Origin: an uncultured Pelagibacteraceae bacterium
GTDB lineage: Bacteria > Pseudomonadota > Alphaproteobacteria > Pelagibacterales > Pelagibacteraceae
Direction of reading: 5' to 3'
Length of the DNA: 64,000 nucleotides
Assembly: GCA_902557605.1 (NCBI GenBank)
Contig: CACEAQ010000002.1
Location: 1-64,000 of the forward strand
This document shows, piece after piece, positions 52,561-53,432 of this stretch. The first letter of the stretch is position 1; each line of letters begins with the position of its first letter. Made by a program: the position numbers and the translations under genes. The notes under the pieces are model-generated. The model ran no database searches. It was given only the letters and a program-made list of their open reading frames with translations, and was not told the origin of the DNA.

Positions 52561-52866
52561 ATGAAAAGATTTTTTTTAACGATTTTATACACATTATTTT
52601 TGATTTCTTTCACTGGCTGCCAAACTGTCTCAAAAAAAATTGAAGATACGACAACCAAAGAAGAGCAGGAATTAAGCAAGTGGTTAAATAAAACTGAAGA
52701 AGATCTTAAAAGTTTTTATGGTCAACCTGACAAAGTTGAATTTTTAAAAACAAGAAACAGAAATTACGTCTACACTACTAAAAAATATAAAATTAAGTGT
52801 GAGCGAAAGTTTGAAATAAACCCAAGGAATATTGTAATTGGTTTTAGTAGCAAAAATTGCTTTTAA
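52561..52866 (+). CDS. Small lipoprotein of unknown function
   Basis: ORF 101 aa; signal peptide with FTGC lipobox. Confidence 0.7.
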   Translation: MKRFFLTILYTLFLISFTGCQTVSKKIEDTTTKEEQELSKWLNKTEEDLKSFYGQPDKVEFLKTRNRNYVYTTKKYKIKCERKFEINPRNIVIGFSSKNCF

Positions 52867-52903: not shown

Positions 52904-53347
52904 TTATTTAATTTCAATAAGTCTTTTTTTCTTAATTTCAGGGATAATTTTTTCACAAGAAATAGTGAGTAAACCATCTTTTAGTTCGGCATCGTTCACT
53001 TTTACATCATCTGCAATTGTAAACGACCTTGCAAAAGATCTTTGCGATATTCCTCGATGAATAACTTCATCACCTTCTTTTTCTTTAGCTCTTTTAACAT
53101 CTTTTGTTTTTACAGTTAAAAGATTATCTTCATATTCAACTTCAACATCATCTTTGTTAAAACCAGCAACTGCTACTTCAATAGCATACTTATCTTTGCC
53201 TGCTTTTCGAATGTTGTATGGCGGGTAATTGCTTTGTACAGCAAGACTACCATTCCCTAACATCGACTCGAATTGATCAAACATGTCATCGAATCCAATG
53301 CTAAAAGGTCTAAGTGAATTAAAGATCGATAGATCCTTACTTGTCAT
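52904..53347 (-). CDS. Hsp20/alpha-crystallin small heat shock protein (IbpA-like)
   Basis: YPPYNIRKAGKDKYAIEVAVAGFNKDDVEVEYEDNLLTVKT, HRGISQRSFARSFTIADDVKV; ATG at 53347 has AAGGAGG SD. Confidence 0.95.
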   Translation of the reverse strand: MTSKDLSIFNSLRPFSIGFDDMFDQFESMLGNGSLAVQSNYPPYNIRKAGKDKYAIEVAVAGFNKDDVEVEYEDNLLTVKTKDVKRAKEKEGDEVIHRGISQRSFARSFTIADDVKVNDAELKDGLLTISCEKIIPEIKKKRLIEIK

Positions 53348-53400
53348 ATATCCTCCTTTGTTAGCAAGGTTAATGTCAGCCCCATTTGGCAACTGACAAA
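53348..53400 (-). promoter_or_regulatory. ROSE-like RNA thermometer in hsp20 5' UTR
   Basis: minus-strand TGTCAGTTGCCAAATGGGGCTGACA hairpin then CCTTGCT-AACAA-AGGAGG, SD paired with UUGCU-type motif. Confidence 0.7.
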
Positions 53401-53404
53401 GTAG

Positions 53405-53432
53405 ATATGGGAATTATTTTTATTTTTTCAAG
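53405..53432 (-). promoter_or_regulatory. Sigma32 (RpoH)-type heat-shock promoter
   Basis: minus strand CTTGAAA (53432-53426), 14-nt spacer, CCCATAT (53411-53405). Confidence 0.75.

Follow-up and report, generated by a model that had tools for sequence, protein, structure and literature searches.

The hsp20 locus and its promoter

The window, i.e., the whole stretch of 64,000 nucleotides that was analyzed, belongs to a SAR11 (Pelagibacteraceae) assembly of 661 kb with a completeness of 56%. SAR11 bacteria rank among the most numerous cells of the ocean, and their regulators are few. The close relatives of the window's genome are uncultured Pelagibacteraceae single cells and 'Candidatus Pelagibacter ubique' HIMB058. 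On the minus strand of the window, an hsp20 gene is preceded by a leader of ∼50 nt with two hairpins. Its product matched PF00011 (E 1e-19) and the top NCBIfam model was IbpA, with a score under the cut-off of that model. The hsp20 promoter starts a few bases past the stop of ptrB (prolyl oligopeptidase; ORF end 53437). The sigma32-type promoter, its position behind ptrB and the two-hairpin leader ahead of hsp20 had all been described in an initial annotation of this DNA, and each was found in the sequence as follows:

53426..53432, minus strand: CTTGAAA, −35 element of a sigma32 (RpoH)-type promoter, read from the sequence; use by RpoH predicted
53405..53411, minus strand: CCCATAT, −10 element, 14 bases from the −35 element
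53374..53398, minus strand: hairpin 1, UGUCAGUUGCCAAAUGGGGCUGACA, bulged G at 53390, tip UYGCC:GGRR; supported by covariation
53352..53369, minus strand: hairpin 2 (ROSE hairpin), CCUUGCU-AACAA-AGGAGG, bulged G at 53365; pairing conserved
53352..53357, minus strand: Shine-Dalgarno sequence (SD) AGGAGG, predicted to be sequestered by hairpin 2, from the sequence and the pairing in 168 of 169 leaders
53335..53341, minus strand: AGTAAGG, codons 3-5 of hsp20, alternative partner of CCUUGCU in the minimum-energy fold
52904..53347, minus strand: hsp20, IbpA-type small heat shock protein (PF00011), 147 aa, ATG at 53347

The promoter is close to CTTGAAA-N13-15-CCCCATNT and transcription of hsp20 would be expected to start near 53398. 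CTTGAA was found upstream of 139 of the 149 leaders of the window's family. RpoH (TIGR02392, above cut-off) is encoded in all 12 relatives tested, from two families; the sole absence was the window's own assembly, in which, at 56% completeness, it was not found. Judged from promoter and gene content, SAR11 hsp20 is probably transcribed by RpoH. The gene was present in 103 of 169 genomes of the window's genus, many of them incomplete, and in 13 of the 14 good ones. Two further genes near hsp20 lie on the plus strand: one for a short membrane protein with a C-terminal J domain (PF00226; 55535-56047), which adjoins the prolyl oligopeptidase gene, and a small lipoprotein-like gene without a Pfam match (52561-52866), in which codons 2-12 are low in synonymous change across the genus.

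Conservation of the two hairpins in SAR11

The ROSE-like class of RNA thermometers is defined by a U(U/C)GCU stretch that is paired to the SD with one bulged G (PMC11342760). Using a direct, alignment-free script, exactly this pairing was found in 168 of 169 SAR11 hsp20 leaders (149 of the window's family and 20 of a second family), which bears out the ROSE pairing proposed in the initial annotation. In hairpin 2, U, C, Y and U bind AGGA or a close form of it in the SD, while the G is bulged. The loop is variable and the outer pairs differ between the two families: the window's genus has C-G, C-G and the second family A-U, A-U, U-A. As hairpin 2 is invariant in the window's genus, it has no covariation of its own there; its SD-covering pairing is supported by conservation across the compared sequences. 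The block AACCUUGCUAACAAAGGAGG was almost invariant in 101 loci of the genus and the arms of hairpin 1 varied in step. Among the 60 ATG-initiated ORFs of the window (at least 100 aa), only hsp20 had U(U/C)GCU followed by AGGR, and of five copies of TTGCT-N3-9-AAGGAG in the 661-kb assembly only the hsp20 copy lay ahead of a clear gene. With a covariance model, the element was located in 300 of the 397 genomes of the family, representing 12 of its 14 genera, a few of these being weak matches (E 0.1-1).

The covariation by which the leader had initially been proposed to be judged was strong in hairpin 1. In 36 diverse sequences of the genus, 6 of its 10 pairs were changed on both sides and 97.8% of the cells were paired. 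In 65 family-wide sequences, 9 of 10 pairs covaried with a score of 0.385 versus 0.194 for shuffled alignments, and none of 500 shuffles reached 0.385; this alignment had been fitted to the structure, towards which it is biased. Slid structures on the same family alignment scored at most 0.10. The bulged-G tip of hairpin 1 was present in 142 of 149 family leaders and the remainder were mostly close variants. The consensus lines of ROSE_2 and ROSE_3 likewise show a bulged base in hairpin 1; the feature is therefore shared, not new. A third hairpin considered within codons 4-9 (AAGGAUC-UAUC-GAUCUUU) was rejected, as it was broken in divergent relatives with no compensating change.

The consensus fold of the second SAR11 family has three hairpins, of which the 3'-most lies over the SD. 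The leaders of this family (L182-L201) are longer and their two upstream hairpins also tend to have a bulged G. Its genomes encode two RpoH-like genes and an Hsp20 that is nearer to Pseudomonas IbpA. A second, distinct Hsp20 gene with a UUGCU-SD leader was seen in a SAR11-family assembly with 8% contamination (L211; G177:C13:7188-8188).

hsp20 leaders of marine phages

When viral contigs were scanned for exact copies of the 18-mer ACTTGCTTAACAAAGGAG, taken from a sister genus, at least 120 stretches were returned, and among the matches listed nearly all were directly 5' of a small heat shock gene. The 18-mer of the window itself matched viral contigs exactly at a single site, which was not before any gene start. 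Since selection by the leader was to be avoided, viral hsp20 loci were fetched by protein using two queries, one from a cyanophage and one from a pelagiphage, and the viral start codons were picked by the presence of an SD, not by the motif. The U(U/C)GCU:SD pairing was present in all 157 usable viral hsp20 leaders (88 different; 80 with UCGCU and 77 with UUGCU), a figure that does not represent all phage hsp20 genes because the two queries sample two phage groups. A strict test, which also demands hairpin 1 with its bulged G, was passed by 105 of the 157. Among 207 control phage ORFs with an SD, the motif occurred in seven, one of which was a missed hsp20. Hairpin 1 of the phages covaried as well (0.506 versus 0.219 for shuffled alignments), with two of five measures not above the shuffles. 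A TAAATA/ATAATA late-promoter-like box was located upstream of 150 of 156 viral hsp20 genes versus 38 of 206 control ORFs; judged by this box, the phage leader usually appears to have a T4-type late promoter ahead of it rather than the sigma32 promoter.

The leader was identified in at least 15 named marine phages: the Pelagibacter phages Mosig, HTVC008M, HTVC115P and HTVC103P (hairpin 1 is divergent in HTVC115P and HTVC103P), the methylophage Melnitz-3 and the cyanophages S-SSM4, S-CAM8, P-RSM4, S-SKS1, P-SSM4, MED4-213, S-SM2, syn9, Syn30 and P-TIM68. It was less clear in S-RSM4 and Agrobacterium phage Atu_ph07 and was not found in Vibrio phage PWH3a-P1 or cyanophage S-TIM5. An hsp20 homologue is present in 508 INPHARED records. 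Two-hairpin ROSE-like leaders together with a T4-type late-promoter-like box on hsp20 were seen in the viral loci L298-L437 and L438-L597. On one viral contig (L325; IMGVR_UViG_3300017782_004332) the same leader, a bulged-G hairpin followed by AACTTGCTTAACAAAGGAG, lies ahead of a GroES-like gene, and on another (L401) ACTTGCTTAACAAAGGAG is also found ahead of a peroxiredoxin-like gene.

In the protein tree, one type of SAR11 Hsp20 (genera g5, g7, g9, g12 and one of g3) was placed among the pelagiphage Hsp20s (98/95), and the Hsp20 of the second SAR11 family was placed beside Pseudomonas-type IbpA (99/95), where the Pseudomonas row is an unverified phage record (Y7) of host-like appearance. The tree fits an exchange of the gene between SAR11 and its phages in either direction.

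The known phage RNA thermometers are lambda cIII, SPbeta blyA and the leader of a gut phage sigma70 gene; the 2024 Robo-Therm paper counted two phage thermometers before its own (PMC11182007). Like the leaders described here, these sit in phage mRNAs; unlike them, blyA and the sigma70 leader are of the fourU type and none is a ROSE-type element on hsp20 (PMC11182007). No paper joining RNA thermometer, bacteriophage and hsp20 was found, and cyanophage and RNA thermometer co-occurred only incidentally, in a literature search that took in few subscription papers. The phage hsp20 leader has apparently gone unnoticed and its extension to phages is apparently the new part; the spread in marine phages is also the most interesting part of the finding. 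On balance, we favor a picture in which ROSE-like thermometers are standard for the hsp20 genes of marine phages (cyanophages, pelagiphages and methylophages), the phage's own late promoter replaces the host heat-shock promoter, late viral chaperone output is set by temperature, and gene and sensor have been exchanged with SAR11. This would give a testable reason for the regulation of marine phage hsp20 and would take phage RNA thermometers from a few cases to a large number of genomes.

Relation to ROSE thermometers and alternative readings

In addition to the bulged-G pairing, the SAR11 leaders have their SD in the 3'-most hairpin after at least one other hairpin (the covarying hairpin 1, or two hairpins in the second family), and a small heat shock gene, which is typical of the class and not required, lies downstream (PF00011, IbpA-like). 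The search with Rfam ROSE models suggested in the initial annotation came out negative, as no family, ROSE included, was found in the window at threshold. The curated thresholds are 43 bits for ROSE_3 (RF02523) and 65 bits for ROSE_2 (RF01832), and the SAR11 maxima of 26.4 and 22.8 bits place the leaders outside both families. The sub-threshold matches were full-length and in register (ROSE_3, 26.4 bits, E 0.14 on leader L172 and 21.3 bits on L141; ROSE_2, 22.8 bits, E 0.45 on L141). When ROSE_3 was run on 39 SAR11 genomes, the hsp20 leader was the best match in two (G184 and G207); the others were missed or gave chance matches. The same model scored 34.1 bits (E 0.0009) on the Melnitz-3 leader and 69 bits on a Pseudomonas-type ibpA leader. 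A fourU thermometer, which needs four consecutive U opposite the SD, was rejected, since the arm CCUUGCU has no U run.

The leaders of Pseudomonas ibpA are proven thermometers of 61-62 nt with two hairpins, the U(U/C)GCU motif and sigma32 control, and hairpin 2 alone melts and senses (PMC3669281). As this arrangement is proven, the window element belongs to a known kind. The likeness covers a length of ∼50-62 nt, two hairpins, the bulged-G U(U/C)GCU over the SD, an ibpA-type gene, a sigma32 promoter and a bulged base in hairpin 1 (by the Rfam consensus). Unlike the Pseudomonas leader, that of SAR11 is A+T-rich and too distant in sequence for the Rfam threshold, and its working temperature must be lower if it is functional in the sea. 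The enterobacterial ibpA-type ROSE_2 shares the motif and the full-length match to L141, which lies far under 65 bits. Of the dual heat control put forward in the initial annotation, promoter and ROSE motif both hold; that their combination is notable is less well supported, as it is established for Pseudomonas ibpA (PMC3669281). A 'possible RNA thermometer' was predicted from intergenic regions of HIMB5, of the same SAR11 clade (Stav et al., 2019, PMC6429828). The main text of that paper gives neither gene nor structure; the candidate may be this same hsp20 leader, and the SAR11 element may thus have been seen before. Neither a heat-shock element nor a thermometer is mentioned in the text of the Meyer 2009 paper on Pelagibacter RNAs.

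The window element is very probably a ROSE-like thermometer, and we put at roughly 80% the reading that it is a short thermometer of this type on an RpoH-transcribed hsp20 whose leader is shared by phages. After transcription by RpoH, the leader would form two hairpins of unequal strength, hairpin 1 being stable and hairpin 2 weak; in the latter, U(U/C)GCU masks the SD, leaving one G bulged, and would keep the ribosome off at normal temperature. Upon warming, hairpin 2 would open and free the SD; such heat-induced opening is probable by likeness to the proven Pseudomonas case. In marine phages the same leader would usually act behind the T4-type late promoter. If a chaperone gene of cool-water organisms carries a direct RNA sensor of temperature, ROSE elements would extend to a lower working range. 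The missing Rfam match, the invariance of hairpin 2 in the window's genus and the computed folds described below count against a thermometer.

The leader could instead serve mainly as the site to which Hsp20 binds to repress its own translation, in the manner of E. coli IbpA; heat would then act by diverting Hsp20 to unfolded proteins. The binding of IbpA to its own 5' UTR involves Arg93, a residue common among the IbpAs of alpha- and gammaproteobacteria (PMC10474464), and a matching GI..R.F motif was present in 101 of 101 SAR11 Hsp20s and, in a looser form, in 104 of 114 proteins downstream of the viral motif. The leader accompanies hsp20 even into phages, and hairpin 1 with its conserved bulged G, which is without an assigned role, would find one here; the bulge being common to SAR11, phages and the ROSE_2 and ROSE_3 models does point to a role for hairpin 1. 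What is invariant, however, is the U(U/C)GCU over the SD, for which a thermometer is a direct explanation, and the Arg is also common where RNA binding was not assayed. Both mechanisms act together in gammaproteobacteria. Self-repression may be an addition to a thermometer and not its replacement, and as the main function it is unlikely.

The ROSE-like reading of hairpin 2 is at odds with the energy model. The SD pairing claimed initially is conserved, but in the minimum-energy fold of the leader with the first codons CCUUGCU pairs with AGUAAGG (codons 3-5), not with the SD; the other computed minimum draws in more distant coding sequence. For hairpin 2 alone, CCUU:AAGG is favored over the bulged-G register by 1.6 kcal/mol. 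In favor of a thermometer, deletion of the bulged G is predicted to stabilize the hairpin by ∼2 kcal/mol. In a melting simulation the SD opened only shallowly with temperature, without a steep transition. It is conceivable, though quite improbable, that CCUUGCU alternates between the SD and AGUAAGG and that temperature shifts the balance. Codons 2-12 of hsp20 are nearly without synonymous change in the genus (entropy ratio 0.08 versus ∼0.5 elsewhere in the gene), yet the same codons of the neighboring lipoprotein-like gene (52561-52866) are similarly constrained (0.21), which weakens this as proof of a coding-region structure. AGUAAGG is also absent from several genera and from the second family, which retain the SD pairing, and such a switch has no covariation. 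Finally, a fixed, temperature-insensitive structure that adjusts translation or mRNA stability would agree with the shallow melting and with a protective hairpin 1 near the 5' end, but it is highly improbable, because it leaves unexplained why the bulged-G U(U/C)GCU:SD pairing is fixed in both SAR11 families as well as in phages from several host groups and occurs almost only before hsp20.
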